Both the position numbers and the translations under genes were made by a program. Shown here piece after piece: positions 8,120 to 43,187 of a stretch of 64,000 bases of DNA (positions are counted from its first letter, which is position 1; each line of letters opens with the position of its first letter). Origin of the DNA: an uncultured Clostridia bacterium (GTDB lineage: Bacteria > Bacillota > Clostridia > Oscillospirales > Ruminococcaceae); NCBI GenBank assembly GCA_947631575.1, contig CANRLW010000007.1:1-64000 (forward strand), written 5' to 3'. The notes under the pieces are model-generated. The model worked only from the letters and a program-made list of their open reading frames with translations, made no database searches and was not told where the DNA came from.

Positions 8120-9042
8120 CCGGAATTAAAGAAAATAAAGATAATAAAAAAATACTGCTTATTGTTGCGGCTGTTCTTACGGTGGTGGGCGTAGTGATAT
8201 TTAGCGTGGCTTTTGCGGTTTTAGGATTTGACATCGCCAAACTCAGCACGCAAAAATACGAGTTTAACACATATACGCTGAATGAAGATTTTAACAGCAT
8301 AAAAATAAACACCGAAACTGCAAGCGTAATACTTGCCGAGTCTGACAGCGACGAATGTAAGATAGAATGTGTCGAACGGGAAAAAATGAAACATTCCGCC
8401 GAAGTGCGAGAGGGAACTCTCGTTATAGATGTGGAAAATACTAAAAAATGGTATGACTATATCGGGTCAAATTTCGGAAATGAAACGGTGACGGTATACC
8501 TGCCAAAAGCCGTATATGCGTCGCTTACAGTAAACGCGGATACGGGCAGCGTGGAAATTCCGAAGATGTTTTCATTTGAAAGCGTTTGCGTCAAAGTTGA
8601 TACAGGCTTAATAGGCTGTTATGCCGAAGTTTCGGATTCGATAGAACTTCAGACGGCTACGGGAAGTATACGCGCGGAAAATTCCTCAACTGACGGAGAA
8701 GTCAAAATCAAAACCGCCACGGGAAGTATTAAAATTGCAGACATTCGCTGTAACAGACTTTCCGCAGAAAGCCATACGGGGAGCATAGATCTTACAAACA
8801 CGATCGCTGCCGATAATATGACAATAAATTGCGCTACAGGAAGCGTAAGACTTGACAGCTGTGATGCAAACGAAATAAAAGTCGCAACGCATACGGGCAG
8901 TATTGTCGGAACGCTTTTATCGGACAAAATATTCTTCGCAAAATCATCGGTGGGAAATGTTGATGTTCCTAAAACCACAAGCGGAGGAACTTGTGAGCTT
9001 GTGACAGGTACGGGAGATATAAAAATAGAAATCAAAAATTAA
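8116..9042 (+). CDS. DUF4097 beta-helix protein, membrane anchored
   Basis: A 308-residue protein. A short basic start is followed by one membrane helix (residues 13-38) and then a long extracytoplasmic repeat region. The repeats carry a T/A-x-TGS motif about every 20-25 residues (ADTGSVEI, TATGSIRA, TATGSIKI, SHTGSIDL, CATGSVRL, THTGSIVG, then a degenerate one). These should form a right-handed beta helix or ladder. DUF4097 proteins of this layout close padR/DUF1700 operons. The exact role is unknown; a surface sensor or adhesin-like scaffold is possible. A hairpin terminator follows the stop. Confidence 0.85.
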   Translation: MTGIKENKDNKKILLIVAAVLTVVGVVIFSVAFAVLGFDIAKLSTQKYEFNTYTLNEDFNSIKINTETASVILAESDSDECKIECVEREKMKHSAEVREGTLVIDVENTKKWYDYIGSNFGNETVTVYLPKAVYASLTVNADTGSVEIPKMFSFESVCVKVDTGLIGCYAEVSDSIELQTATGSIRAENSSTDGEVKIKTATGSIKIADIRCNRLSAESHTGSIDLTNTIAADNMTINCATGSVRLDSCDANEIKVATHTGSIVGTLLSDKIFFAKSSVGNVDVPKTTSGGTCELVTGTGDIKIEIKN

Positions 9043-9055
9043 AGCAGAAATAAGA

Positions 9056-9090
9056 AAAGGCATTATCGAAAAAACATTGATAATGCCTTT
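9056..9090. terminator. Bidirectional terminator between convergent operons
   Basis: AAAGGCATTATC at 9056-9067 pairs with GATAATGCCTTT at 9079-9090. It lies between the end of the padR operon and the end of the metallo-hydrolase gene and can serve both strands. Confidence 0.8.
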
Positions 9091-9114
9091 AAGTTTTATA
9101 TATAGCCTGTCGCC

Positions 9115-9744
9115 TTACCGCTTTGGGAGCTTTATAACAACATTTATATTTTCGTCAACATTCCTGCGGAAAACTTCTGCGTCTTCGGGCTTTCCGACTA
9201 TCGAGCCGTAATGCGTCGGCACGGCAAATTCCGGCTTTATGGTGTTTATAAGCATTGCGGCTTTCTCGGCGTTCATTGTAAAATGCCCACCGATAGGGAC
9301 AAGAGCTATCCGACATTTGACCTGTCTGTTTTCTTCCGTAACATCGGTGTCGCCGGAAATATAGATCCTACCGTTTTGTTTGCTGTTTATTATATAGCCC
9401 ACCCAACCGTTTGATTTCGGGTGAAAAGGCTTTATGTTGTTGTATGCAGGAATTGTTTCAAAACAAATGCCCGATATTTCAAACTTTTCATTCGGAGAAA
9501 CAAGTTCTACGGAAATTCCAAGCTCGCTTGCTGCGGTCATTGTTTTCGGGCAGACAATAACGGTGTCGTCCTTCATGACTTTTCGTATGTCGCCTACCGA
9601 ATAATGATCGTAGTGCGCATGAGTTATAAGTATAATATCGGCGTCATGATGCTCATCAGAAATATCAAGCGGATCACAGTAAATAACCTTTTCGTCCGCT
9701 ATCCTGATACTGCTTTGTGTGTTTACTTCAATAAAATCAAGCAT
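9115..9744 (-). CDS. Metallo-beta-lactamase-fold hydrolase (UPF0173-like)
   Basis: A 209-residue protein with the MBL metal motif THAHYDH near residues 40-46, a downstream GGHF near residue 150, and THYGS near residue 178. ISGDTDV supplies the Asp that bridges two metals. This small single-domain form is usually annotated as an MBL-fold metal-dependent hydrolase; the substrate is not known, and no lactam-specific feature is visible. It starts 4 bases after the stop of the 787-aa gene and has no strong ribosome site of its own, so it is probably translated by coupling. That pairing ties it functionally to the membrane protein. Confidence 0.85.
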   Translation of the reverse strand: MLDFIEVNTQSSIRIADEKVIYCDPLDISDEHHDADIILITHAHYDHYSVGDIRKVMKDDTVIVCPKTMTAASELGISVELVSPNEKFEISGICFETIPAYNNIKPFHPKSNGWVGYIINSKQNGRIYISGDTDVTEENRQVKCRIALVPIGGHFTMNAEKAAMLINTIKPEFAVPTHYGSIVGKPEDAEVFRRNVDENINVVIKLPKR

Positions 9745-9750
9745 TTTTGG

Positions 9751-12114
9751 TCATTTCTGATTTTGCTCTGTACTTGCACCGAATGAAAACGAGCTGTTAA
9801 ATCTATTCATGCTTTTCATAGCTATCTTCATAGCCTGAATCGATTTTTCCGTGTCATTGATCTGCTTTTTAAGGCGTTTCTTTTCTTCCTTATCTGCAAC
9901 ATCCGCTTTTAATTTAAGTTCTACAAGCTCTTTTTCAATATCAGCAATATTCCGTACATACTGTTCATAGATAGTATTAGAATATTCTATGTCATGTTCG
10001 TCATTGAGGAATATTTCCCGAACAGAAACCATAAGTTTTGCAGATTGCAATATTGTGTCTTTCTTTCCGAGAAGTCCTGTTGCGCTGACAGTTCCACCGA
10101 CTCCGGCACCAACTCCAATTCCAAGGACTGCGCCGCCGCCTACGATTGCCGCAGTGCCTCCTGCCATTCCCAACCCACCTGCTGCAATTGCTCCGCCTCC
10201 AAGGTATGCAAGACAAGCACTTGTTAAAGCTGCTCCGCTAAGTCCTACAAAATTCGAGCCTACAAGCGCGACCGCGATCGCTGGGGCAAAAGCTCCTGCT
10301 GTGGCGATAACAACAATAGCAATTCCGGCAGTTATGGATATACCTTTTATAGCATTTTTCAGAACCTCGTTAAGTTCGCGGGTAACCTTTCCATAACATT
10401 TGCGAAGTCGTTTAATATAGCCTTTTTGATAAAAACTCTCTGTAAAAAATCCTTCAAGAAATTTATCACCTTCTGATTGGTTATATCCCATTAACGGTAA
10501 ATGTAGTTCTTTATATTTTGTACTTGGTATTTCTTTTCCATTTTTGTCTATCTCTGTGCCGAGCGGATAATACGGTTCAAACAGCATTGTTTCCAGTAAT
10601 ACAAGCCTGAACCATGGCAATTTCGGAGAATTTGCCGCGACGGCGTTGCGAAGTTCTTCTTCGGAATACCAGTGCAGAACAGCGTTTTCATCGTTGACAA
10701 AAGCTGAAAAGCCGTTTTGCATATACTGTTTCCATTCCTCTAGCCATTCATTTTTCAAAGAGGCGGTTTTCCCACCGCGATTTATATCATTTAAGGTTTT
10801 GTACATTTCAAGGTTATACAGTATTTCCGTTTGCTTAAGATCAAGTCCGAATTTTTCTATATCCACGGTGTCTCCTATTCTGTTATAAATTTTATTGTCT
10901 GTTTGTGCGAAGGTATTACGGCGAATGTTCTCATACATTTGCTTTATTTTCTTTACATCACGCACTCTAAGGTGATTTGCGATTTCAGTGCCGATTGCAA
11001 CGGCAAATCTTCCAATTCCCAAATAATTTACGGCAACCAAATATTGTTGAGAAACAATTGCCTCCGTAATATCAACTGTTGAAAAAACCGCGTTTGAAAT
11101 AGTTATCATTCTGTCAACCGTCGGGTTTCCAAATGGCTTTACGCTGTCCCAATCGATATTTTTAAGGTGAATGTCCTCGACCGAATTGCATTTAAGTTTT
11201 TCCAACGCAATAGAGAACCTTCTGATAAAATAAAAACTCCTGACAAAGCATTCATTTGCAATCACAGGAATTGCCTGTTTGCCAAGTTCAGCAACTGCGC
11301 CAAGTTCTCCGCGCAAATCAATCCTTACGACAGAATCTTTGATGATTTTTCCGTTTTCATCACGACGGGCAAATATAGTTCCATTAAATATTGCAGCAAG
11401 AAAAGCCGAAAGTTTTCGGTCGCCGATATTTATATTTCTGAAAAAAGGGAGCGCGGATAGTTCTTTGGCAAGCGATAATATCGGACCAGGTATACCTGTG
11501 CCGCCACTAATGCCGGCTGTGCTACTTGATCCCGCCATATCGCTGACAAGATGAAAGAACCATATGATTGTCCCATTGAACAGTTTATTGGGGATATTAT
11601 TTCCGATAAATGCCTTGCTTTTATCGGGAACAGGTACCACTTTAAAAATACCATTAACATCGGTTCCGTATGACATTTCCGTAAACTGTGTAAGCAAAGA
11701 AAATATAAGACCGACAAGCGTGGGGTGATGCCCGAAATCACGAAGATGATGCTGTAATCCGCCTCCAAAATCTGGGGTGTTCCCATCGCTAGGTATGGGA
11801 AATTTTTCTTCCAGAAATTTGACTGCACTTTGACCTTTGCCGCTCTTATAACCAAGCAGAGCAGCTGTTTTTTCAACAAATTCATCTACCTTATCACTTG
11901 CAACTGAACGTCCTTTTTCAAGGCTGAAATCTCCTACCCACAACACATCAAGCATACTGCATAAAATGCCCGACGCAACTGCAACAATAATATCCCACTT
12001 ATCAGCCCGACTTGAAAGCATTTTGATTTCTTCATCCAGATCATATATTACAGCATCAAAATCATTGACATTTGCTTTTCCGAATGAAGTGACCTGTACT
12101 TCTATGTTATCCAT
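9751..12114 (-). CDS. Large glycine-zipper membrane protein of unknown function
   Basis: A 787-residue protein I do not recognise. The first 450 residues are soluble and mostly helical, with a hydrophobic patch near 45-60 and a conserved-looking HHPTLVGLIFSLLTQFTEM block near 128-146. Residues about 590-685 are very rich in Gly and Ala with repeated GxxxG/GGxA patterns (GGGAIAAGGLGMAGGTAA and more), long enough for three or four membrane passes. The last 100 residues are a charged coiled coil (ADIEKELVELKLKADVADKE). Glycine zippers of this sort occur in pore-forming and toxin-like proteins, but that is only analogy. It has its own promoter and is followed by the hydrolase gene. Confidence 0.6.
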   Translation of the reverse strand: MDNIEVQVTSFGKANVNDFDAVIYDLDEEIKMLSSRADKWDIIVAVASGILCSMLDVLWVGDFSLEKGRSVASDKVDEFVEKTAALLGYKSGKGQSAVKFLEEKFPIPSDGNTPDFGGGLQHHLRDFGHHPTLVGLIFSLLTQFTEMSYGTDVNGIFKVVPVPDKSKAFIGNNIPNKLFNGTIIWFFHLVSDMAGSSSTAGISGGTGIPGPILSLAKELSALPFFRNINIGDRKLSAFLAAIFNGTIFARRDENGKIIKDSVVRIDLRGELGAVAELGKQAIPVIANECFVRSFYFIRRFSIALEKLKCNSVEDIHLKNIDWDSVKPFGNPTVDRMITISNAVFSTVDITEAIVSQQYLVAVNYLGIGRFAVAIGTEIANHLRVRDVKKIKQMYENIRRNTFAQTDNKIYNRIGDTVDIEKFGLDLKQTEILYNLEMYKTLNDINRGGKTASLKNEWLEEWKQYMQNGFSAFVNDENAVLHWYSEEELRNAVAANSPKLPWFRLVLLETMLFEPYYPLGTEIDKNGKEIPSTKYKELHLPLMGYNQSEGDKFLEGFFTESFYQKGYIKRLRKCYGKVTRELNEVLKNAIKGISITAGIAIVVIATAGAFAPAIAVALVGSNFVGLSGAALTSACLAYLGGGAIAAGGLGMAGGTAAIVGGGAVLGIGVGAGVGGTVSATGLLGKKDTILQSAKLMVSVREIFLNDEHDIEYSNTIYEQYVRNIADIEKELVELKLKADVADKEEKKRLKKQINDTEKSIQAMKIAMKSMNRFNSSFSFGASTEQNQK

Positions 12115-32521: not shown

Positions 32522-33697
32522 CTATTTCCCAGCATTGTGCGCTGTTTTTGAAAATTCGGCAATATCCCGCCCTTTAAGCACAAGGCCGAGCAATTCGGGG
32601 AGCTTTTGGGGGTTGCAGGCAAAGCAGGGAATACCGAGCTTTGCGAGCTTGTTTGCCACGCTTTCGTCATAAAACGGCGCTCCTCCGTCGGCTACGGCAA
32701 GCAGGGACACGACCGTAACTCCCGACGCTTTCATTTCTTCCATTCGCCTTATAAGCGCGGCGCGGTTTCCTCCCTCGTAAAGGTCGGAAATAAGGAAAAA
32801 CAGCGTCTTTTTCGGGTCGTCTATAAACTGTTCGCAGTACGCCACCGACTTGTCAATGTCAGTGCCGCCGCCGAGTTGAAAACCGTAGAGCAGGTCTACG
32901 GGATCTGAGCATTTGTCCGTGAGGTCTACTACATTTGTATCAAACGCAACAACTCTTGTTTTAAGCGCGTTCATACTCGCTAAAATACAGCTTACGACTG
33001 ATGAAAAAATAACGCTTTCGCCCATAGAGCCGCTCTGGTCGATGTCTAAAATTATCGTCCATTTTTTTGCGGCGGAAGATGCGGCGCGCTCAAAGAAATA
33101 AAAATGCTCGGGAACTATCGTTTTAAGTTGGGGCGAATAGTGCTTTAAATTTCTGCGGATAGTCATTTTATAGTCGAGCGCGGACGCTGACGGTATGGGA
33201 GAGTGTTCGCGCTTATTTACTGCGGCGGTGACTGCTCGCCTTATGTCCTGTTCGAGCAGTTTGTTTATGTCGTCAACTATTTTCTTTATAAACGCTCTTA
33301 CGCTTTCCTTTGAGCGGTCGGGTATCATTTCTTTGAGCGTAAGTATAGCGGACGCAAGGGAAATATCCGGTTCTACATTTTCGAGTATCTCGGGCTCAAA
33401 AATAAGCTGTTTCAGTCCGCAGCGCGTCATTGCGTCATTCTGAATGACCTTTACAATTTCCTTGTCAAAAAGCGTTCTGACGTCGCCGAGCCAGCGGGAG
33501 ATCTGCGGGTTTGAAGGTCCTTTGCCGCCGCTCGTTCCAAAGCCGCCCTGACCGCTCTTGTTGTATATCGAGGCAAGGGCGCTGTCCATAAGCAATTGTT
33601 CTTCTGAGAGAGCGGGCATATCCATTTCTTCAAAGCGATTTTTGCTCTCCTGTCCGAGTATCAGCCGCCAGCGCTGCATTTGTACCGTTTTATCCAT
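32522..33697 (-). CDS. VWA-domain protein of the MoxR/DUF5682 operon
   Basis: A 391-residue protein. The C-terminal half is a von Willebrand A domain with an intact metal site: DIDQSGSMGES, where Asp220, Ser222 and Ser224 form the DxSxS motif, then GGGTDIDKS near 275 and LISDLYEGG near 305. The N-terminal 200 residues are a helical region that resembles CoxE-type proteins. Such proteins work with MoxR AAA+ ATPases as metal-dependent adaptors that bring substrates to the ring. It is the last gene of the five-gene operon, 15 bases after DUF5682. Confidence 0.85.
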   Translation of the reverse strand: MDKTVQMQRWRLILGQESKNRFEEMDMPALSEEQLLMDSALASIYNKSGQGGFGTSGGKGPSNPQISRWLGDVRTLFDKEIVKVIQNDAMTRCGLKQLIFEPEILENVEPDISLASAILTLKEMIPDRSKESVRAFIKKIVDDINKLLEQDIRRAVTAAVNKREHSPIPSASALDYKMTIRRNLKHYSPQLKTIVPEHFYFFERAASSAAKKWTIILDIDQSGSMGESVIFSSVVSCILASMNALKTRVVAFDTNVVDLTDKCSDPVDLLYGFQLGGGTDIDKSVAYCEQFIDDPKKTLFFLISDLYEGGNRAALIRRMEEMKASGVTVVSLLAVADGGAPFYDESVANKLAKLGIPCFACNPQKLPELLGLVLKGRDIAEFSKTAHNAGK

Positions 33698-33712
33698 ATG
33701 TTCACCTGTAAA

Positions 33713-36022
33713 TTACAAATCAAAATCAAAACCCGAAAGGTCGTCTATAACTTGCTGTGCAGCCGCGTCAAGAGGCGCATTCAGCGTTTCGCTCACTTCT
33801 TCGCCGTTCAGTCCCCAGATCTCTCCGAGATTTTCGGCTATTGCGTCCTTTTCTCCCGAAGAAAAATCCGCGAACGCTCTGCGTAAAAACACAAGCGCGC
33901 GTTTAAATTCCTCGTCGTCAAGCTCTTTAAGATAATCGTCCAGACTTTCCCAAAGCGACAGCCTCGCAATAAGTCCGTTTCGGTTTTTCATAGCCAGCCC
34001 CTCAAACCAGCCCGCGCCGAGGTCTGCGGGAACGCCTTTTGACAGCCTGCGGGAAACTTCCGTTTTCAGCTCGTCGTTCGTCATCTTGTTGCGTTCGAGG
34101 AGAATTGCCGAGCAAAGCCCCGAAAGCACGGTATTAAGGTCGTCGCGGAAAGATACCTCCGAAAGCGCTTTTGTCCATTTTTCCGTTTCAAGAAAACCCT
34201 GCGCGAGTTCCACGGAGTTTATCATATTTATCGCGTTTGCCGTTTCCTTTGCCGCGTCGTCGTCACAAATGCAGGAAGAACTCATGATAAGGCAGGCGCG
34301 GTAATAAAGCTGCTTTAATATTGGCTCTACCGCCGAACAGTCGGCTTTTCGTATGTCGCCGTAGCTTATGACGTTTGAAAGGCTGAACATGGTCTTTGCT
34401 ATTTCATAAAACGGGATATTGTCCGCCGCCGCGGCTTGTAGCGCGTTTACCGCATAGCTTGCCGCATTTGGCATTCCACAGCAGAACGCGTCTTCTACAG
34501 CCTTTGCGATAACGGAAATTTCTCCCGTGTTTTCTACGGTTTCTTTTATCTGATACGCCGCCGCAAGCTCTACAGTGTCGCCTTTGAGCGCGCTTTCAAC
34601 AAGAACTATCTCACATTCGGTAGTCCATTGTATCTGCCAAGTTTCAGCCCATGTGGCGTTGTCCTGTTTTGACGGGATAAGCTGCGCAAAGTTAATTCCC
34701 AAAACGCGCAGCTTGTGGAAAAAATACGAGCGGTTGAGGTTGAGAAACGCCGACTTTTCCGAGCTTGCTCTTAAATTCTCGCGCAAGTCAAGTTTCAGCT
34801 CCTGCGCTGTCACAGAGCGGTATTTTTCGAGCTTTAGTTCTTTGAGCAGGCGGTAAAAGTCGTCCTGAATGCTCGTTCTTGAAACGCCCTCGGGTATCTC
34901 TCCCAGGTGCGTTCCTATCTCGGTATCGGCGACCGCCGTGCTTATCGCGGCAAAACTTCCTTCTCCTATACAAGTAGTCGCCGCGTCGCGTAAATCCGAA
35001 AGCGTCGGGATATTTCCCCCGTGCATTTTTGCAAGCGCTCCCGCAAGCCTTAAACCCTCAATGACCTGCGCCGAGGACGCGGCGTTTCCGCTTTCGCGCA
35101 TTTCCTCCGCGATCTTTGAAAGATAGGCGTTCGCCGCATAAAAACGGTCGTTTTGGCAAAGACCGTTCCATATAAGCTCATAATAAGCCGGGGCTTTGTT
35201 TCCCGCTCCGTATCCAGAACGCGTCGAGAGCCTGTAATATGAATAGGGCATAAGCGTATGCAGCGACGGGAGTTTTGGAAACGCTGGTATTTCTTCATCT
35301 GTTTCCCACGTTTTCAGCCCTTCGACATGATACGCGCCCGTTACTACAACTATCTTTTCGGGAGAAATACCGCTCTTTACCGCGTTTCTTATGACACTTC
35401 GCATACAGCTTTCGCGCAGGGCTGTTTCCTTTTCGTCAAACCCGTTCTTTTCGGACAATTCGCGTATATTTGCGCCGAAAAGGTTCGCGCCCAAGTGATA
35501 AGCCGCCGCATTTTCACAGTGTTCGAGCGTCCGCTCCCAGAACGTTTCGTGCGAACCGTCCTCGCTTTTTTCCGAGAGGAGCTCATAAACATCGGGCTTT
35601 TGGTCGGGTATTGTTTCGGCGTCCTGCCCGTCTTGCTCCTTGTCGTCTTGTTCATCGTTTTCGTCAGCGTCGCTCTCGGATTTTCTTATCCTTTCATCTG
35701 AAAGCGCAAGAAAAGTTTCGGACGGTAGGTCCATAAACTTCAGCTTTACATTATTTTCATCGCACCATTTTATAGCCTGATATTCGGGGGAATATTCCGC
35801 AAAGGGATAGAGTATCGTCCTTATGGGAACGCTCTGCGTATAAGCGAGAATTGCAAACGGCGGCTTTGTTTCACTTCGCACAATGTCCGAAACGGTATCT
35901 TCAAAATCCATAGGCGTTTCGATTATGACAAGCTCCGGTTTTGTTTCACAGAGAAATTCCCGCAGGAAAAACGCTCCGGCAGGGGAGAGGTGGCGTATGC
36001 CGAAAAAGTTTACGCCGCTCAT
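33713..36022 (-). CDS. DUF5682 protein
   Basis: A 769-residue protein. The start MSGVNFFGIRHLSPAGAFFL, then ELVIIETPMDFEDTV, is the DUF5682 hallmark. VVTGAYHVEGL near residue 230 resembles the final His-containing strand of the TraB/ChaN-type metal hydrolase fold, so the first 250 residues may be an enzyme. A very acidic Asp/Glu/Gln linker lies near 118-145. The remaining 500 residues are helical with repeat-like character. DUF5682 occurs almost only beside MoxR and VWA genes; its activity is unknown. Its ATG overlaps the MoxR stop (ATGA), so the two are coupled. Confidence 0.85.
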   Translation of the reverse strand: MSGVNFFGIRHLSPAGAFFLREFLCETKPELVIIETPMDFEDTVSDIVRSETKPPFAILAYTQSVPIRTILYPFAEYSPEYQAIKWCDENNVKLKFMDLPSETFLALSDERIRKSESDADENDEQDDKEQDGQDAETIPDQKPDVYELLSEKSEDGSHETFWERTLEHCENAAAYHLGANLFGANIRELSEKNGFDEKETALRESCMRSVIRNAVKSGISPEKIVVVTGAYHVEGLKTWETDEEIPAFPKLPSLHTLMPYSYYRLSTRSGYGAGNKAPAYYELIWNGLCQNDRFYAANAYLSKIAEEMRESGNAASSAQVIEGLRLAGALAKMHGGNIPTLSDLRDAATTCIGEGSFAAISTAVADTEIGTHLGEIPEGVSRTSIQDDFYRLLKELKLEKYRSVTAQELKLDLRENLRASSEKSAFLNLNRSYFFHKLRVLGINFAQLIPSKQDNATWAETWQIQWTTECEIVLVESALKGDTVELAAAYQIKETVENTGEISVIAKAVEDAFCCGMPNAASYAVNALQAAAADNIPFYEIAKTMFSLSNVISYGDIRKADCSAVEPILKQLYYRACLIMSSSCICDDDAAKETANAINMINSVELAQGFLETEKWTKALSEVSFRDDLNTVLSGLCSAILLERNKMTNDELKTEVSRRLSKGVPADLGAGWFEGLAMKNRNGLIARLSLWESLDDYLKELDDEEFKRALVFLRRAFADFSSGEKDAIAENLGEIWGLNGEEVSETLNAPLDAAAQQVIDDLSGFDFDL

Positions 36023-37101
36023 TCGTTAAGCTCCCTGCAAGCTCTGTAAAGCCCGCTCCATTCCGAGCCGCGCTTTTTCATGATGTTTTCGAGATATTCC
36101 TTCCATGCAACGGTGTCCTTGTCGTCCTTTACTACCGCGCCTTGTAGCCCTGCGGCTATATCGTCATCGGATATGTCGCCGTTTCCGAAACTGCCCGCAA
36201 GCGCCATGCTGTTACACAAAAGCGAAATTGCCTCGGCAGTAGAAAGCACTCCCGCGGGCGCTTTTATTTTCTGCTTTTTGTCAAGAGTTTCGCCGCCGCG
36301 CAGTTCGCGGAAAATGGTGCAGATCTTTTCTATTACTTTGTCTTTCGGGAGTGCGGCATTGAGGTCAAGACTTCCCGAAAGCTGTTCTACGCGCGTTTTT
36401 ACAATGTGCATTTCTTCTTCAAGAGTTTCGGGCGCGGGCAGGACTACGATATTGAAACGCCTTTTAAGCGCCGCTGACATATCGTTTACGCCCTTGTCGC
36501 GGGTGTTCGCGGTGGCGATTATCGAAAATCCCTTTTTCGCGGGAACTTCAAGCGATAATTCGGGAACGCTTATCCGCTTTTCCGAAAGCAGGGAAATCAG
36601 CGTGTCCTGAACTTCGGACGCGCACCTTGAAATTTCTTCTACACGCGCAATAGCTCCTTCCTCCATTGCCGTAAAGACAGGGCTTTTGAGCATTGCCTGT
36701 TCAGAAGGTCCGTTCGCTATAAGCATGGCGTAGTTCCACGAATAGCGAATTTGCTCCTCGGTCGTGCCAGCAGTTCCTTGTATAACGCGGGAGGAGTTGC
36801 CGTTTATCGCCGCAGTCAGATGCTCGGAGAGCCAGCTTTTCGCCGTTCCGGGTTCGCCTATAAGCAATAACGCGCGGTCGGTGACGAGTGTTGCTATTGC
36901 AATTTCAACTAAACGCTCGTGTCCGATATATTTCGGCGTAATGACGGTTTTCCCGACTTTACCTCCGCAGATGTAGGTTTTAACAGACCTCGGCGACATT
37001 CTCCAGCCTTCGGGAATGGGGTCGGTCTCCGCTTTTATAAGCGCGTTTAATTCATCTTCAAAAAGCTGTTCGGCGGGAAGTCTTAAAATTGAATTGTCCA
37101 T
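36019..37101 (-). CDS. MoxR-family AAA+ ATPase
   Basis: A 360-residue AAA+ protein. Walker A is GEPGTAKS at 82-89. A Walker B-like acidic segment (GAIARVEEISRC) lies near 155, sensor 1 is IIATANTRDKGVND near 192, and the arginine finger is in LKRRFNIVVLP near 212. A helical lid follows. MoxR ATPases act as chaperones that mature or remodel partner proteins and nearly always sit next to a VWA gene. Here the operon also has DUF5682, a SWIM protein and a helical-repeat protein, a more elaborate version. AAAGGAG precedes the ATG. Confidence 0.92.
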   Translation of the reverse strand: MDNSILRLPAEQLFEDELNALIKAETDPIPEGWRMSPRSVKTYICGGKVGKTVITPKYIGHERLVEIAIATLVTDRALLLIGEPGTAKSWLSEHLTAAINGNSSRVIQGTAGTTEEQIRYSWNYAMLIANGPSEQAMLKSPVFTAMEEGAIARVEEISRCASEVQDTLISLLSEKRISVPELSLEVPAKKGFSIIATANTRDKGVNDMSAALKRRFNIVVLPAPETLEEEMHIVKTRVEQLSGSLDLNAALPKDKVIEKICTIFRELRGGETLDKKQKIKAPAGVLSTAEAISLLCNSMALAGSFGNGDISDDDIAAGLQGAVVKDDKDTVAWKEYLENIMKKRGSEWSGLYRACRELNE

Positions 37102-37127
37102 AAATTACTCCTTTAAATTTAAGTCTG

Positions 37128-38978
37128 TTAATGTTGAGGCGCCCAGTAATGATATATATCTTCCCTTAGATCCTCTAAATCAAGGTTCAGCGTTATGTTG
37201 TTAGCTTTGGCATAGTTTTCGAGATCGTCAATTTCCTTGCAAAGGTATTCATAATCGCTCGGCACCCACCGCAGGAATTTAAGCGCGTCTCTATATTTGT
37301 CCTTAAACTTCATGTGGTTTTCCTTGAAATATTCAAATACAAGCCCCTCGATATTTGTATAGCCCATGCCTTTCAGAATTAAAAGATAGTTTAAAGAGTC
37401 CTCGCTGTAAACTACCCGCTTGAAGAAATACTGTTTTAATTTCTTGCGCATTTCTTCGTCATTCTTGTCGTATAACTCGCTCGCAAAATATTCCGGCATA
37501 TACCAGTCGCAGCTTAAAAACATATCGAACCATTTTTCCTTTACGGGCTGACGAATGGGAACGGTATAGGTTTCGTACACTTCCGCAGCGGCTGTATGGC
37601 TGTCATACACCTTATACTGAATGTAATACTTTCCGTCAATGCACGTTATGTACTTAACGCAGGACATCGCGGGCGAGTAGAATACGCTCTTGTTGCTTTG
37701 AGTCTGAGCGCGTTCCTTTGCCTCGAGAATTTTCTTTTTGAAATAGTCGGTGCAGTCGTCTGTGCCCAGAATGTGCGCGAAAAATGCACTTTCTTCAAAC
37801 TGTACGGGATATTTCTTCTCAAACTCCAGAGCGAGGGCGCACATATCGGGGTCGCCCGTCGTAGCGACAGTTACCGCAAGTGCGTTGTTTATAAGCTCTC
37901 TTATGCGGGAGCGGAGAACTTTTTTATCCTCGTCGACAGGGGCGGCGGCTTTTCTGAAAAATTCAACAACGTCCTTTCCAAGCTTTCCTTGAAATGCAAA
38001 ATAATCAATGTCCACAAGACCCAAGCCGTTCATCTTGTACTTTCCGCCGTCGTTGTTGTCGAAAAGCCTGTTGCCTATTTTCGCGGCTAACTTGCTTGCC
38101 CACGGGGTTCGGTTGAACGTCAGGTATGCAAGGGTTTCCTGCGGTTTTTTCTTCTCCATTTCTTCAAAGAATTCTTTTGCCTTGTCGCAGTCAAGGCTTG
38201 CAAGCGTGTGGAAAGCCTGTTCTTTTATCGCGCCTTTTTCGGTTTGTGTAAGTTCAATAAGCTTGTCGGCGTTGCTCGCGTCATGTCTTAATGCGCGGAT
38301 AAGGAGCTTTTTCGCGCCTTTTTCCGTAAGCGGCAGGTATTCAAGATAGAAGTCGTTTTCATCTGCGCCGCCAAGCTCGTCAATAAGCAATATACGGTTT
38401 ATCGTTCCTTTTTTGCCTTTCGGGTCGAAACCGTGCTTTAAAAGCGGGAGCATTGTCTTTCCCATACCCTTTACGGTCCTGAACGCCAGAACCGACTGTT
38501 CGCTGTAAGACGCGCCCAGACATTCGACTAGCGCGGGCTTTACACGATAATCCTCGAACAATTCGGGTTCATTCTGCAAAGCGTCCGTAATTATTTTATA
38601 GTTACCGTTTCCCGAACCACTAAGCGCGTTTATAAGCTTTGACAGGCTCGAATACGGCGCGTTTGTTATCTTTGAGGGAACTTCAAAAACGGGAAGTTTT
38701 TCAGCCTCTCCCTCAACGTCTACTTTCGCTAGCGTCGTCATTACCGAATCAGTCAGCGACAGCGCGTCAAGCAGCGTTCCCGCAGGGTCAATACAATTTT
38801 CCGAAACAAGTGAGCTCGAAAGCTCGTAAATTTTCCCGAAAACGGGAGAAGAGTCTTTAAGCGGCGCAAATGCGCTTACCGCCCTTTTAAGTCTGAAATT
38901 CTCCGAAAGCAGAGATGAGCCCGAAATTGCCGCAGAGCGAAGTTGTGCGCGAATCTCCGAAATAGCTGTTATATCCAT
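37128..38978 (-). CDS. Helical-repeat protein of the MoxR/DUF5682 operon, unknown
   Basis: A 616-residue soluble protein. The middle part (about 120-340) reads as tandem helix pairs like HEAT repeats (KELIELTQ-type units such as LIRALRHDASNADKLIELTQ and QAFHTLASLDCDKAKEFFEE). The C-terminal third has aromatic-rich stretches (YITCIDGKYYIQYKVYDSHT), then PIRQPVKEKWFDMFLSCDWY and a final helical part. No catalytic motif is visible. It probably serves as a scaffold or adaptor for the AAA+ machine. It lies 12 bases after the SWIM gene and 26 bases before moxR on the same strand, with GGAGG ahead of its ATG. Confidence 0.65.
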   Translation of the reverse strand: MDITAISEIRAQLRSAAISGSSLLSENFRLKRAVSAFAPLKDSSPVFGKIYELSSSLVSENCIDPAGTLLDALSLTDSVMTTLAKVDVEGEAEKLPVFEVPSKITNAPYSSLSKLINALSGSGNGNYKIITDALQNEPELFEDYRVKPALVECLGASYSEQSVLAFRTVKGMGKTMLPLLKHGFDPKGKKGTINRILLIDELGGADENDFYLEYLPLTEKGAKKLLIRALRHDASNADKLIELTQTEKGAIKEQAFHTLASLDCDKAKEFFEEMEKKKPQETLAYLTFNRTPWASKLAAKIGNRLFDNNDGGKYKMNGLGLVDIDYFAFQGKLGKDVVEFFRKAAAPVDEDKKVLRSRIRELINNALAVTVATTGDPDMCALALEFEKKYPVQFEESAFFAHILGTDDCTDYFKKKILEAKERAQTQSNKSVFYSPAMSCVKYITCIDGKYYIQYKVYDSHTAAAEVYETYTVPIRQPVKEKWFDMFLSCDWYMPEYFASELYDKNDEEMRKKLKQYFFKRVVYSEDSLNYLLILKGMGYTNIEGLVFEYFKENHMKFKDKYRDALKFLRWVPSDYEYLCKEIDDLENYAKANNITLNLDLEDLREDIYHYWAPQH

Positions 38979-38990
38979 AAATTACCTCCG

Positions 38991-40454
38991 TCAATAAAGC
39001 AGTCTTACTACAGCATTTTCGCTGTCGGGAATAATGCACATCGGCTGTGCGCAAATTCTGTTTTCGGCTGAGTCATAGTGAAATCCGCAAAGCATAACGC
39101 CGCTTTCAAGAAGTTTTTTGTCGGGGAGCATTTTCAGGCGATCCGTCATTGTTTCGTATTCGTCATAGTCCTTTAGCTCTACCGTGTCGCCGTCTTTTGA
39201 TCTTAGAACAGTTTTTTCACCGATCTTATCTACTTCCGAAAAAGCTATCAGCTTATAGATAACGGGGCTTGACATTGCGTTCTGCAAAAAGTTTTTAATG
39301 CTTTTAATTTCCGCTTTAACAGAGCTTGCGGCATACGAGCGCAGTTTGTTGAAATCATCGTCCGTAAGCTCCGAAAAACTTGCATTGTCCCACCGTGCCC
39401 TGACATTTCCCTCTCCGGGATAAACTGCCATAACCGGGATATCCGCCACGCCAAAAACGGAATCGTCCGCTTTTATGTGCTTAAGCGATTTAAGCGGTCT
39501 GAAGTTCTTTGTGAGATAGATATTTCCGCTGTTAAGCTCTATCCATGCGCCTGTTTCTATATATTCCTTTCTTGCGTCGTCAAAAGTTACCCAGAAAGAA
39601 AGCTGTATCATTCGCGCGTTTTTCACGCATTTGCCTATTGTTTCAAGCTCGGTCAGTTTCCAGTTTCCGCCGAGTTCTTCATAAAGCGCCGTATCGTCAA
39701 GCGCGGGATCGTCGTTTTCGATTTTTTCGGTTATGTACTTTCTTGACTTCTTGATAAGTGAATTTAACTTTTCGAGAGTGTCAATTGCCGCGTCATAATG
39801 GCTTTCAAGATTGTCTTTCTGATACTCGGTTATCTCGATAATAAGTCTGTTGAACAGGCGCTGAATGCCGATAAGATAATAGTCGCCGAACTGTTTGGAT
39901 AATTCCTGATAGTTTGACAACGACGCGCCGCCCATTGTTCCCAAGCCCGCCGAGATAAGCTCCTTTATTGCCTTTTCGCAAAGCTCAAGACCCTCAAGCT
40001 GTTTTTTGAACTTTTTCTTTTTTGCGGAGCTTGCCGTTTTCTTTGCGGCAGCTTTTTTCTTTTCGGTTTGTTCAGACTCTGCCGGTTCGGCGTTTTCTGC
40101 TTTAGCTGCTTTTGCCGCAAGTTTCGCGCGCTTTGATAGAATATCCTCGGGTATCTCGCAGACGCTGAATTCCTTGTCCGTCATCATCTCATACATAAGC
40201 GCAAGCGAATGTTTACAGGGAAACTGCCTGCTCGGACAAGAACAGCGGAAAACCGGGTGGTTTTCGTCTATATAGTCTGCGGAAGTGACATAAGGGTTTT
40301 TCCCGCTGCCCTTACATTCGCCCATAAAGAACGTTCCGTCCTCCGAGCAAAAGCGGTTTATAAAGCCGCCGCCCGACGAGATCTTTTTCCCGTTTGCCGC
40401 CGCGGCACTATTCGGCGCAAGCGACAGAATAAGCTGTTCGGTGATATTCTTCAT
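38991..40454 (-). CDS. SWIM zinc-finger protein, first gene of the MoxR/DUF5682 operon
   Basis: A 487-residue protein. The SWIM finger is FRCSCPSRQFPCKH at residues 70-82, with Cys71, Cys73, Cys80 and His82 as ligands. Before it lies a short beta region (GGGFINRFCSEDGTFFMGEC). A Lys/Ala/Glu-rich linker follows (about 105-150), then 330 residues of mixed helix and strand. SWIM domains bind DNA or proteins and are a regular member of MoxR-VWA-DUF5682 gene clusters. The second ATG at 40454 is preferred, since AAGGAG is then eight bases away. A promoter lies 46 bases upstream. Confidence 0.85.
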   Translation of the reverse strand: MKNITEQLILSLAPNSAAAANGKKISSGGGFINRFCSEDGTFFMGECKGSGKNPYVTSADYIDENHPVFRCSCPSRQFPCKHSLALMYEMMTDKEFSVCEIPEDILSKRAKLAAKAAKAENAEPAESEQTEKKKAAAKKTASSAKKKKFKKQLEGLELCEKAIKELISAGLGTMGGASLSNYQELSKQFGDYYLIGIQRLFNRLIIEITEYQKDNLESHYDAAIDTLEKLNSLIKKSRKYITEKIENDDPALDDTALYEELGGNWKLTELETIGKCVKNARMIQLSFWVTFDDARKEYIETGAWIELNSGNIYLTKNFRPLKSLKHIKADDSVFGVADIPVMAVYPGEGNVRARWDNASFSELTDDDFNKLRSYAASSVKAEIKSIKNFLQNAMSSPVIYKLIAFSEVDKIGEKTVLRSKDGDTVELKDYDEYETMTDRLKMLPDKKLLESGVMLCGFHYDSAENRICAQPMCIIPDSENAVVRLLY

Positions 40455-40499
40455 TATCATAACTCCTTTTTTAAATTTTCAAAAATTACCTTAATATAC

Positions 40500-40528
40500 A
40501 TTATAACATAAGAGTGAGTAAAAGTCTA
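40500..40528 (-). promoter_or_regulatory. Promoter of the SWIM-MoxR-DUF5682-VWA operon
   Basis: On the minus strand TAGACT (40528-40523) and TATAAT (40505-40500) are separated by 17 bases. It is the only strong promoter-like signal ahead of the five genes. Confidence 0.55.
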
Positions 40529-40607
40529 TATGAAATTAAAAAAAGCTTTCACGCTCTAAGGTGGTTTTATTTTTGAGATTGTTTCTCGCTCGAAACCTCT
40601 CTTAAGA

Positions 40608-40754
40608 TTGCCGTTTTAAAAACCATGTTTTTAAAACGGCAATGCGGGGAAAACTCTTGTTTTCCCCGCACCCTTTAGCGCTAATTTGCGATATTTCGCG
40701 GTTTCACCGCGACCAAAGGGGAAAAATTTTTTGAAAAAAATTTTTCCCCTTTGG
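40608..40754. repeat. Cluster of four perfect hairpins in 147 bases
   Basis: The first stem is 15 bp (TTGCCGTTTTAAAAA, 40608 with 40642). The second is 11 bp (TGCGGGGAAAA, 40643 with 40670). The third is 5 bp (CGCGG, 40697 with 40711). The fourth is about 20 bp (CCAAAGGGGAAAAATTTTTT, 40713 with 40754). They lie between hsp20 and the MoxR operon. The last may terminate hsp20 transcripts, but four in a row look like an interspersed repeat element. Confidence 0.7.
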
Positions 40755-40858: not shown

Positions 40859-41308
40859 TCATTCAATTTCGAGGTGTTTAGATTCCGGAGCTTTCTCCTG
40901 CTTTTTCGGCAGATCAAGCGTCAATACGCCGTTATCGTATTTTGCCTTGATACCGTCAGTCTCAATCCCCGAAATATCAAACTGCCTGCTGTACTTTCCG
41001 TATGACCTCTCAATACGGACGTATTTGTCCTTCTTCTCTTTCTGCTCATGCTCCGAATGGCGCTCGGCGTTTATAGTCAGCGTGTTGTCGGTGATGTCAA
41101 GATGAATGTCCTTCTTTTCAAATCCCGGCAGATCCGCCTCAAGCACGAAATGATCGCCCTCGTCGGTAATATCCGTCTTAAATTCCGCAATATCGCCGCT
41201 GCGGAAAAACGGTGAGTCTCCGAAGAACTTTCTTTCAAATTCTTCCATTTCATTGAACGGGTTGTACAAAGCATCGCTCATTCTGCGATAAGGTCTAAGA
41301 TCAAACAT
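40859..41308 (-). CDS. Hsp20/alpha-crystallin small heat-shock protein
   Basis: A 149-residue chaperone that holds unfolded proteins under stress. The alpha-crystallin domain covers about 42-135: FKTDITDEGDHFVLEADLPG, then DIHLDITDNTLTINAERHSE and the closing GVLTLDLPKK. The family's C-terminal anchor appears as HLEIE. The start has CAGGAGG ahead of the ATG. Expression is under heat-shock control, shown by a perfect CIRCE operator at 41466-41492 downstream of a good promoter. The 157-base leader also holds a palindrome. Confidence 0.95.
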   Translation of the reverse strand: MFDLRPYRRMSDALYNPFNEMEEFERKFFGDSPFFRSGDIAEFKTDITDEGDHFVLEADLPGFEKKDIHLDITDNTLTINAERHSEHEQKEKKDKYVRIERSYGKYSRQFDISGIETDGIKAKYDNGVLTLDLPKKQEKAPESKHLEIE

Positions 41309-41428
41309 AAAACATACCTCCTGAAAATATATTCTTGACTGTAGTATTATTTGCCGTTGTCCTCTTTAAATTCATCGGAATCAGTCCTTTCTTTTTTCTT
41401 TCTGAATATATTCTAAGTCCCGTTTGTT

Positions 41429-41447
41429 AAAACTGTGTCACAGTTTT
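41429..41447. promoter_or_regulatory. 19-bp palindrome in the hsp20 leader
   Basis: AAAACTGTG and CACAGTTTT flank a single T. The dyad lies between CIRCE and the hsp20 start, so it could be a second operator or an RNA hairpin. It does not match the CtsR consensus. Confidence 0.5.
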
Positions 41448-41465
41448 GTGAAAATAAGATGAAAA

Positions 41466-41492
41466 TTAGCACTCTCACTTTGAGAGTGCTAA
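41466..41492. promoter_or_regulatory. CIRCE operator (HrcA site)
   Basis: TTAGCACTC, a 9-base spacer, and GAGTGCTAA: the exact CIRCE consensus. It lies 16 bases past the -10 of the hsp20 promoter, over the expected transcription start. Confidence 0.95.
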
Positions 41493-41508
41493 AAAGTTAT
41501 ATTTACAA

Positions 41509-41537
41509 ATTATTTTGAACAACATTTCACTTGTCAA
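41509..41537 (-). promoter_or_regulatory. hsp20 promoter
   Basis: On the minus strand TTGACA (41537-41532) and AATAAT (41514-41509) are 17 bases apart, directly upstream of CIRCE. Confidence 0.7.
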
Positions 41538-41549
41538 TTTTCTGCTTTG

Positions 41550-43187
41550 TTATTCTTCGTCACTGTCCGAAATGCCGTCATCTTCAAGCTTTAAAATGTT
41601 GCTGTCGTCGCCTTCAAGCTGTTCAACGCTTTTGAGACTTCTCGCAATGGCACGCGAACGCGTCCCGATAAGCTTTTCAAGGTCGTCGTCGGCTTGTCTT
41701 AAACGGTTTCTCGCAGAATCAAGCACTTTTCCGAATGACGCAAATTCTTTCTTTGTCGCCTCAAGAATTTTCCATACCTCGCCGCTTTTCTTCTGTATAG
41801 CTACGGCGCGGAAACACATCTGCAAGCTGTTCAGCATTGCCGCCATTGTAGACGGACCGCAGACATTAACTCTATAATTGTTCTGCAAAGTTTCCACAAG
41901 CCCCATTTTTATTACTTCGGCATAAAGTCCCTCCGACGGCAGGAACATAAGCGCGAAATCCGTTGTGTAGGGAGGAGCTATATACTTGTCGTGAATGCTC
42001 TTTGCCTCGCGTTTTATCTCCGATTCGAGAGCCGCGCGCTTTTCCTTTACGGCGCTTGGCTCTCCGCTCTCATAAGCCTCAAGGAGATCCGAATATTTGT
42101 CCTGCGGGAATTTGGAGTCAATAGGAAGATACATAAAATCATTCTTGTCCGAGCTTGGAAGTTTTACGGCATAGTCTACCTTTTCGCTGCCATTCGGAAC
42201 AACAGCCTGCTGCGAGCAGAACTGTTCTGGGGCAAGTATCTGATCTAGTATAGCGCCTAGCTGTATCTCTCCGAGATTGCCTCTTGTCTTTACATTTGAG
42301 AGAACATTTTTGAGGTCTGAAACTCCCGACGCAACGCTCTTCATCTCGCCTAGTCCCTTATGTACCTGTTCAAGACGTTCGTTAACCGCCGAGAACGACT
42401 GGGTTAGTCTGTCGTTCAGCGTTTTCTGGAGCTTTTCATTTACCGTGTCATTTATCTTGTCAAGGCTCTGACGGTTTTCGGTGCGGAGCTTTTCAATGCT
42501 TTCGCTGTTGGATCTGCGGACGCTTTCAAGCGAAGTGAGAATTTCCTCGCGTATCTTGTTAAAGTCATTTTCAAGCTTTAAAAGCTTTTCGTTTACGTTA
42601 TTGTTTATCCTGTCGAGGCTCTGACGGTTTTCGTCACGCTGCTTTTCCGTGTCGGCAGAGCTTTGTTTTCTGGAACTTTCGAGCGAAGAAAGTATATCCT
42701 CGCGTATCTTATTAAAGTCATTTTCAAGCTTTAAAAGCTTTTCGTTTACATTGTTGTTTATCCTGTCAAGGCTTTGCTGATTTTCGCCGCGGAGTTTGTC
42801 CATGCTTTCGGTATTAGATCTTCTTATCTGTTCAAGAGATGCGGATATATCGCCGCTTATTTTTGAAAACTCGCTTTCAAGCCGCGAAAGCTTTTCGTTT
42901 GCGTTTTTCTGCTGCAATTCCTGAGAGCCGCGGAGATTGTCGCCGAGCATTGAAATGTTTTTAACGACCGAGTCGTTTACTCTGCTCACCTCGTCCATAA
43001 GCGTTTTGCCGGTTGATTCGGACTGTTGTTTTAAAACTTCAATGTCCTGAGAAAGTTCGCTTATCTCTTCTTCAATTTTTTCCTGTCGGCTGTCGGTTTT
43101 CCTTTTACTTTGCAATACCAGCATAATTATCAGCAAAACGACATTTATCCCCGAACAAACCAGCGCGAGTATTTCTACGGTTTCCAT
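41550..43187 (-). CDS. rmuC: RmuC-family DNA recombination protein with coiled-coil repeats
   Basis: A 545-residue protein. One N-terminal membrane helix (ILALVCSGINVVLLIIMLVL) is followed by a long coiled coil to about residue 300, then the RmuC nuclease-like domain (NVKTRGNLGEIQLGAILDQI, IDSKFPQDKYSDLLEAYES, FLPSEGLYAEVI, LQMCFRAVAIQKKSGEVWKI). RmuC limits DNA inversions at short repeats. The coiled coil contains a 51-residue unit present twice almost unchanged, with partial copies on each side. GGAAG precedes the ATG. Confidence 0.9.
   Translation of the reverse strand: METVEILALVCSGINVVLLIIMLVLQSKRKTDSRQEKIEEEISELSQDIEVLKQQSESTGKTLMDEVSRVNDSVVKNISMLGDNLRGSQELQQKNANEKLSRLESEFSKISGDISASLEQIRRSNTESMDKLRGENQQSLDRINNNVNEKLLKLENDFNKIREDILSSLESSRKQSSADTEKQRDENRQSLDRINNNVNEKLLKLENDFNKIREEILTSLESVRRSNSESIEKLRTENRQSLDKINDTVNEKLQKTLNDRLTQSFSAVNERLEQVHKGLGEMKSVASGVSDLKNVLSNVKTRGNLGEIQLGAILDQILAPEQFCSQQAVVPNGSEKVDYAVKLPSSDKNDFMYLPIDSKFPQDKYSDLLEAYESGEPSAVKEKRAALESEIKREAKSIHDKYIAPPYTTDFALMFLPSEGLYAEVIKMGLVETLQNNYRVNVCGPSTMAAMLNSLQMCFRAVAIQKKSGEVWKILEATKKEFASFGKVLDSARNRLRQADDDLEKLIGTRSRAIARSLKSVEQLEGDDSNILKLEDDGISDSDEE

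Follow-up and report, generated by a model that had tools for sequence, protein, structure and literature searches.

What does a MoxR AAA+ ATPase with a VWA partner act on when its genes stand beside those of a SWIM zinc-finger protein, a DUF5682 protein and a helical-repeat protein, and how might such a machine select its targets? The question is raised by five minus-strand genes at positions 32522..40454 of a 64,000-nucleotide stretch (the window) of contig CANRLW010000007.1, from an uncultured Clostridia bacterium of the family Ruminococcaceae. We propose, with a probability of roughly 0.55, that they encode a YehL-type MoxR-VWA machine for target remodelling with an exchangeable recognition subunit, a proposal drawn from sequence comparison. 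The putative recognition subunit is a 616-residue helical-repeat protein, here called H616 (37128..38978), which has no Pfam family of its own. It is the most informative part of the operon, with a constant half, an exchanged half, tandem copies and replacement by other proteins elsewhere. Within the openly licensed PMC literature, the H616-bearing version with an exchanged half is a new variant.

Constant and exchanged parts of H616

Relatives of the operon were collected with a MoxR profile scan of one genome per species (84,980 species), which gave at least 566 relatives, and the best 80 were kept as loci. Because these were picked by similarity to the MoxR of the window, other operon types are under-represented among them. 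Gene-content counts rest on the 80 named loci, without duplicate contigs. Some contigs carry two names (L047/L145, L050/L125, L052/L144 and L053/L114); such duplicates are excluded from the comparisons of H616 halves and from the sets of synonymous differences, while three duplicate pairs are kept in the 64-locus identity matrices.

Sequence entropy divides H616 in two. Across 58 sequences, the mean per 40-residue block is 1.5-2.4 bits for residues 1-280, the constant half (38139..38978 in the window), and 2.8-3.15 bits for residues 281-616, the variable half (37131..38138), which is swapped among relatives. Among 84 H616 sequences, 3440 of 3486 pairs of N-terminal halves match by blastp at E≤1e-5, compared with 1017 of 3486 pairs of C-terminal halves. 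In 105 of 116 pairs, non-synonymous divergence is higher in the C half, which is also less identical than the N half in 65 of 66 Paenibacillus pairs.

HEAT repeats begin at about residue 112 of the constant half. A HEAT_2 match at E≤0.01 is present in 33 of the 58 family members, the H616 of the window not included, and the family profile, compared with proteins of known structure, finds mostly artificial HEAT-repeat proteins within residues 112-301 (best E 6e-18). An initial reading of this DNA from its letters alone, referred to below as the sequence-only reading, had called the 616-residue protein HEAT-like; its relatives bear this out, while the protein of the window, taken alone, has no Pfam match at cut-off and no NCBIfam match. 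The C half matches no named family and is presumably helical.

Exchange of the variable half, or of most of H616, between surrounding genes that are alike is seen in three lineages. One of them includes the window. Its DNA identity with locus L078 is 0.83-0.92 from about residue 240 of H616 to the end of the gene and 0.69-0.91 elsewhere. From about residue 307 on, identity with L078 is 0.85-0.92, compared with 0.54-0.64 for L051, L076 and L077, three loci that are about as distant from the window as L078 in most other genes. Synonymous differences between L078 and the window are lowest in the C half (0.33), intermediate in the N half (0.52) and highest in the other four genes (0.61), a pattern that suggests transfer and not only slow change.

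The second case is the pair L127/L131, in which DNA identity is 0.83-0.95 through SWIM and H616 up to about residue 267, 0.53-0.71 in the rest of H616 and 0.84-0.98 from MoxR on, save for two stretches of DUF5682 (0.61 and 0.79), before the sequences diverge behind the VWA gene. The third is a pair of Paenibacillus loci, L258/L259, whose contigs measure 681 and 292 kb. Their four other proteins are 96% identical, and the two halves of H616 reach 0.66 (N) and 0.44 (C). At the DNA level the left flank of this pair is 0.93-0.99 identical, SWIM 0.73-0.94, H616 from residue 114 on 0.48-0.65, MoxR 0.94-0.99, DUF5682 0.90-1.00 and the right flank 0.87-0.97 for about 1.5 kb, after which the sequences diverge. 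In both L127/L131 and L258/L259 the tract ends at the junction between H616 and MoxR.

Tandem copies show the same partition. Two or three H616 genes are present in 7 of the 80 loci, one of these genes being partly cut by a contig end. Comparisons among the tandem copies, which include L048 as well as the close relatives L089 and L091, give identities of 0.63-0.86 for N halves and 0.25-0.66 for C halves, with the N halves more alike in 12 of 12 cases. Two copies of L129 pair off with two of L138 at 0.67 in the C half.

The conserved operon and its YehL-type core

The four other genes are tightly spaced with H616. The VWA protein (32522..33697, minus strand, 391 residues) is a CoxE-like VWA with a metal ion-dependent adhesion site (MIDAS), of the YehP type; it is followed, in ascending coordinates, by the YehM-type DUF5682 protein (33713..36022, minus strand, 769 residues), the YehL-type MoxR ATPase (36019..37101, minus strand, 360 residues), the minus-strand H616 gene and the SWIM protein, a distant YehQ homologue (38991..40454, minus strand, 487 residues). 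All five open reading frames (ORFs) are intact, and the gaps from VWA to SWIM measure 15, -4, 26 and 12 bp, the overlap of four bases (ATGA) lying at the MoxR/DUF5682 junction. For SWIM, the longest ORF starts at 40460 (489 residues); the start at 40454 is preferred because an AGGAG lies 8 nt away from it, compared with 2 nt, and because the relative L051 starts there. Pfam matches above cut-off are VWA_CoxE (148.7 bits), DUF5682 (491.4 bits), AAA_5 (130.1 bits) and SWIM (22.5 bits, cut-off 19.6), and MoxR passes AAA_3 and bpMoxR as well, with lower scores.

The functional motifs of these proteins are well preserved among relatives. MIDAS motifs DxSGSM and GGGT[DN] are present in all 64 copies compared, that of the window included; the third MIDAS stretch was recovered in 23 of the 64 with a search pattern that was probably over-strict. 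The SWIM motif CxCPS..CKH is kept in 64 of 64 copies, and the MoxR motifs Walker A, EE[IV][ST]R and TAN.RD in 63 of 64 each. The tight minus-strand spacing with a 4-base overlap, the SWIM start at 40454 and the intact MIDAS had all been noted in the sequence-only reading, and each holds on comparison.

The gene set is equally stable. At least 4 kb are available on either side of MoxR in 56 of the best 80 loci; all five genes lie on one strand in 54 of these, and 52 have the order SWIM, one to three H616, MoxR, DUF5682, VWA. Gene order differs from that of the window in L088 and L103, and in L125 (the contig also named L050) H616 and SWIM are found elsewhere in the genome, on another contig. 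L153 (Rhodopirellula) and L057 from the family of the window have the core genes MoxR, DUF5682 and VWA alone. The recurrence of these families together, noted in the sequence-only reading, is matched by the neighbourhoods. Neither of the refuting conditions named there applies, as homologous loci do keep the genes together and H616 is found with this operon. Further ORFs inside the operon occur in L134, L154, L079 and L082, and in L115 an ORF with AAA-ATPase_like and PDDEXK_9 domains (8267-9967) stands between H616 and MoxR.

The distribution of the operon is broad and uneven. The best 80 loci carry the names Lachnospiraceae, Oscillospiraceae, Paenibacillus and Treponema, together with bins labelled Verrucomicrobiia, Spirochaetia, Desulfovibrio and Gastranaerophilales, some of which are perhaps misnamed; the full five-gene set is also present in a Fusobacterium record. 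In the family of the window, 19 of 148 genomes have a DUF5682 score above cut-off, and in its phylum 8 of 398. H616 is found in 11 of the same 148 genomes, in nine of which it adjoins MoxR-DUF5682; of the two exceptions, one has DUF5682 on another contig, and the other lies on a 3.3-kb contig beside SWIM only, in a genome in which DUF5682 was not found. Within a single Paenibacillus genus, DUF5682 occurs in 12 of 19 genomes; each of the 12 shows the five genes in this order, with MoxR split in two in one of them.

Across 64 loci, mean pairwise identity falls from MoxR (0.77) through VWA (0.66), DUF5682 (0.55) and SWIM (0.47) to H616 (0.28). When the identity matrices of the five proteins are compared with one another, the rank correlation is 0.88-0.93, and in each of the four comparisons with MoxR the value was reached in 0 of 500 permutations; species history alone can be sufficient to yield such correlations.

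DUF5682 is likely a member of the TraB/Tiki superfamily and a putative metallo-hydrolase. Residues H11, E35, R203, E204, G229 and H232 are invariant in 45 sequences, while the G preceding the first R-H is not conserved in all. These columns fall within residues 1-300 (35123..36022, minus strand), the TraB/Tiki-like putative hydrolase domain, which matches a TraB profile with a score of 39.7 (probability 56, E 1e-4, 37 columns), centred on RE..M......VVtGa.H..Gl. None of eight control profiles (those of six other families and of the C-terminal part of DUF5682, and the profile in reverse) exceeds 19.4, and none of 60 column shuffles exceeds 17.8. The TraB profile comprises seven sequences, six from genome searches plus E. 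coli YbaP, one of which starts late and lacks the first motif; smaller profiles match more weakly, at 36.0 (probability 46) with two PrgY-like sequences and 27.0 (probability 8.6) with one. In a forced full-length alignment the first H and E are also in register; TraB/PrgY/Tiki (PF01963) and DUF5682 have H, E, R and GxxH in a common order. The conserved histidines and glutamate of TraB/Tiki presumably form a metal site. DUF5682 differs from TraB/Tiki in its approximately 470 further residues and its place within an AAA+ operon. The TraB-like start had been recognized in the sequence-only reading, and the profile comparison and its controls lend it support. No convincing relative of solved structure was found for DUF5682, the best being a designed protein (E 0.011, residues 552-615).

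Two side observations concern DUF5682. The window's genome encodes a separate, genuine TraB-family protein (G000 contig C2, 66083-66862, locus L167; 148 bits). In L127/L131, DUF5682 residues of approximately 111-161 have a DNA identity of 0.61 in operons that are otherwise mostly above 0.9. This segment lies near a gap-rich stretch of the family alignment and is a candidate for a further variable spot.

By protein similarity and gene order, the operon is best placed, as a variant and not as a new class, among the YehL-type MoxR-VWA operons, which have been little studied, since its MoxR-DUF5682-VWA genes correspond, in identical order, to the yehL-yehM-yehP core of E. coli and its SWIM protein is a distant homologue of YehQ. 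The E. coli locus comprises yehI (DUF4132), yehK, yehL (MoxR), yehM, yehP (VWA) and yehQ (SWIM). MoxR of the window is 38% identical to YehL over its length (E 2e-79), its VWA 35% to YehP and its DUF5682 23% to YehM. These identities and the preserved motifs agree with the MoxR-VWA machine type assigned earlier. The SWIM protein has no match to YehQ by BLASTP; in a profile-profile comparison, window-type SWIM and YehQ match with probability 96 (E 4e-9, 295 columns). YehL is one of seven MoxR subfamilies in a published division (PMC3893208). The E. coli genes are nearly universal in their species: at least 80% of yehL-yehQ is covered in 5162 of 5426 complete E. coli genomes, and the same share of yehI in 5177 of 5426. 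The earlier statement that no substrate or cell role is established accords with the openly licensed PMC full text, in which no dedicated study of yeh operon function and no mention of DUF5682 were found; a yehQ deletion was constructed in a study of butanol tolerance.

Upstream of SWIM, a promoter-like site TAGACT-17-TATAAT with TG ahead of the second hexamer (40500..40528, minus strand) was identified by consensus match; 14 such sites were found in the region, compared with 8.9 (sd 3.2) in shuffled sequence. Hsp20 and RmuC genes follow (40859-43187), Hsp20 about 400 bp from the operon. ORFs sized like Hsp20 and RmuC occupy the same place in L054, with wider spacing, and L075 has RmuC plus an ORF of 149 residues upstream of SWIM. 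The gap between Hsp20 and the operon holds three perfect inverted repeats with arms of 17, 12 and 20 nt (40607-40670 and 40713-40754); the 20-nt repeat (40713..40754) is terminator-like on the plus strand by pattern match. No known RNA reaches its gathering score in the operon region.

The proposed machine and its alternatives

In the proposed machine, the variable C-terminal half of H616 would bind the target, and the conserved, HEAT-containing N half would dock on the constant parts, roles suggested by the constant and variable layout together with the exchange tracts. VWA would hold the target through its MIDAS and MoxR would remodel it with ATP, by analogy with other MoxR-VWA pairs; the corresponding motifs are present here. 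DUF5682 has a large C-terminal part besides its TraB/Tiki-like domain and, as a putative metallo-hydrolase, may then act on the presented target. The SWIM protein, observed to be co-inherited with H616, could be a zinc-dependent binding part that travels with it. In other branches, DUF5691 or DUF4132 (YehI) proteins join the same core in place of H616. As to whether the targets are foreign or the cell's own, we lean slightly towards the latter.

Several observations weigh against an exchangeable recognition half. The exchanged unit varies and is not always the C half: the L258/L259 tract also takes in SWIM and part of the N half of H616, and between L258 and L262, the sole one of 66 Paenibacillus pairs with C halves more alike than N halves, the deepest dip (0.67-0.75) lies in the N half, at residues of approximately 114-213. 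The right end of the tract shared by L078 and the window is blurred and may run into MoxR, the first part of which is 0.85-0.91 identical. Replacement by a homologous allele is evidence of divergent alleles, not of different targets. Diversifying selection on H616 was not found in the 12 pairs compared, in which dN/dS of the whole gene is 0.09-0.20 and the highest value for half a gene is 0.26, indicating purifying selection; in one of these pairs the synonymous sites of three other genes are saturated. Low identity in the C half may in part reflect weak constraint, and only the exchange tracts argue for more.

An anti-invader system like the MoxR-vWA ternary systems, with H616 as a VMAP-like sensor and DUF5682 as effector, would account for part of these data, and we regard it as possible but rather unlikely. 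VMAP-MoxR-vWA operons are described as constant in gene order, with trees that agree and a middle region of VMAP that varies strongly and is nearly always helical (PMC7159879); H616 adjoins MoxR and displays comparable signs in its congruence and its variable part, and its exchange tracts and tandem copies, like the patchy presence of DUF5682 in the family and phylum of the window, fit such a role. MoxR of the window also exceeds the cut-off of bpMoxR, from the beta-propeller ternary systems (33.7 bits, cut-off 27), although AAA_5 fits far better, and no beta-propeller protein is found among the five. Its conserved GW.[ML]S stretch has no clear fit to the two published VMAP-type aromatic motifs (PMC7159879). 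VMAP-C gave no Pfam match in the five proteins (E≤1) or in 58 H616 sequences (E≤0.01), the presence of the model in our Pfam copy being unchecked, and no effector domain lies behind the VWA domain, which spans residues 149-368 of 391. A known defence system was rejected as a candidate, since none of the five proteins is strongly matched by PADLOC (best E 0.0029). Among 90 neighbouring ORFs of 30 loci (three per locus, near-duplicate loci and short contigs left out), PADLOC at 1e-10 gave at most three ORFs per family among the 25 listed of 90; clear defence names near the operon are single or double matches (type I specificity, JetA, mad3 and mad5, without a background rate), which speaks for the lack of a striking defence neighbourhood and nothing further. 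A fixed neighbourhood was likewise discarded, no Pfam family occurring in more than three of the 90 ORFs. Carriage by phages or plasmids was rejected too, with DUF5682 at E≤1e-5 in 36 of 72,556 plasmid records, several of them chromosome-sized, and in 1 of 50,697 phage records; in viral contigs, 50 pattern matches yielded no confirmed relative. The lone phage record (L158, MT835988.1, 'Bacteriophage sp.') is an unverified, unannotated 14-kb faecal scaffold with MoxR-DUF5682-VWA, and probably bacterial DNA. The sequence-only reading had offered a conflict or stress role as conjecture, and conjecture it stays; purifying selection on H616 and the near-universal presence of the E. coli version count against the conflict part.

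That same core status in E. coli favours a machine for quality control or complex maturation of host clients, in which variation of H616 would track varying clients such as surface proteins, an alternative that we judge tentative yet somewhat better founded than a conflict role. Complex maturation is also the role proposed for RavA-ViaA, another MoxR-VWA pair (PMC3893208), and the window has Hsp20 upstream of the operon. In 7 of 80 loci, ClpS follows VWA on the same strand at 4-60 bp, succeeded by ClpA and, in the six loci with enough contig left, by Aat. These N-degron loci are L088 (14714-18038), L089, L091, L092, L096, L100 and L103, from a group named mostly Lachnospiraceae, and Pfam confirmation covers the genes of L088 plus ClpS and ClpA of L103. 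Among 200 genomes of that Lachnospiraceae family, 21 have DUF5682, 8 have Aat and 4 have the two together; with the centre genome set aside, the co-occurrence is 3 compared with 0.7 expected (P 0.024). However, ClpS-ClpA-Aat also stand apart from the operon (L189, L195, L196 and L197). Of 11 other Aat regions in operon-bearing genomes, four hold all three genes, one ClpA and Aat, and six Aat without ClpS, the latter also without ClpA except for one partial ClpA-like match. Of 39 genomes checked, 17 have Aat and 22 lack it, that of the window among the latter. As the seven ClpS loci are closely related (MoxR 93-98% among six of them), their linkage may reflect one joining event; it hints, at most, that in one lineage proteins handled by the machine can go on to ClpAP. 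Exchange of whole alleles would moreover be unusual for a factor with a fixed client. Insertion or repair of metal cofactors is improbable. It would suit the CoxE type of the VWA protein, the service of other MoxR-VWA pairs to metalloenzymes and the name molR, which we take to be the old one for the E. coli yeh region; it leaves an exchanged subunit unexplained, and no metalloenzyme or cofactor genes appear among the recurrent neighbour families listed. A Deinococcus DUF4132 protein and MolR have been tentatively tied to molybdenum metabolism, with the named molybdate genes unchanged (PMC8533742), and yehM is among the mutated genes of a copper-evolution study (PMC12409786). Least probable of all is that the apparent exchange arose through faulty metagenome assembly or through aligning a poorly constrained region. 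L127, L131 and L078 are metagenome bins and the C half aligns poorly in general, but the long contigs of L258/L259 have near-identical sequence flanking the tract on both sides, two tandem copies in L129 and L138 pair across species, and synonymous and non-synonymous differences both jump inside the tract.

Relation to other partners and known systems

Other proteins accompany this core elsewhere. The helical partner in the E. coli locus is YehI (DUF4132, 1210 residues), a role that H616 would fill in the window operon, and the SWIM gene stands behind the core in E. coli and in front of it in the window. Eleven loci from the family and phylum of the window combine the core with YehQ-like and DUF4132 genes, as in E. 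coli. In Deinococcus and Methylosinus, a DUF5691 gene occupies the place of H616 between SWIM and MoxR, and in Hymenobacter SWIM and DUF5691 are fused into one protein at that place. These DUF5691 operons keep the order of the window, although the Methylosinus gene table has no VWA gene. The E. coli pseudogene yehH (L001, 2411-5270) matches yehI in two pieces and represents a decayed tandem relative, which recalls the tandem H616 genes.

Homology among the H616, DUF5691 and DUF4132 partner classes is suggested, and it is put no higher because, among 58 H616 proteins, a DUF5691 match at E≤0.01 is found in a single one. That protein, from a Verrucomicrobiia bin, has HEAT_2 above cut-off and falls just short of the DUF5691 cut-off (24.9 bits, cut-off 27), and a profile comparison of H616 with the single Hymenobacter DUF5691 protein gave nothing (probability 0.3). 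Direct homology between H616 and YehI was sought by BLASTP and rejected (best E 0.93), and none of the five window proteins matches DUF4132 at E≤1. Profile comparison places the H616-YehI similarity in the HEAT region, with probability 28 from 12 sequences and probability 81 (E 1e-5, 135 columns) from 58; it may reflect perhaps no more than common HEAT repeats.

RavA-ViaA of E. coli likewise joins a MoxR ATPase to a VWA partner, and we know of no DUF5682, SWIM or H616 partners in that system. RavA falls into a different MoxR subfamily in the published division (PMC3893208). VMAP ternary systems resemble the window operon in congruent evolution and in joining a MoxR-VWA pair to a third component, part of which changes fast (PMC7159879). 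The window operon differs from them in its extra DUF5682 and SWIM proteins and in that no VMAP domain was found.

A bolder form of the proposal, to which we give distinctly less than even odds, is that H616 serves as an interchangeable targeting cartridge of a widespread AAA+ remodelling and hydrolysis machine. It would be re-aimed by recombination, of the C half or of the whole SWIM-H616 front, and by tandem stacking, with DUF5691 and DUF4132 proteins, YehI included, as other cartridge classes. If so, bacteria would possess a protein-targeting machine that they re-aim through cassette swapping, and the functions of DUF5682, DUF5691 and DUF4132 could be approached together by a concrete route. 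The exchangeable subunit points to a specific question, namely what H616 or YehI binds and whether this partner changes with the allele. The logic of such a cartridge would be comparable to that of the specificity subunit of type I restriction systems, with H616 aimed at proteins instead.

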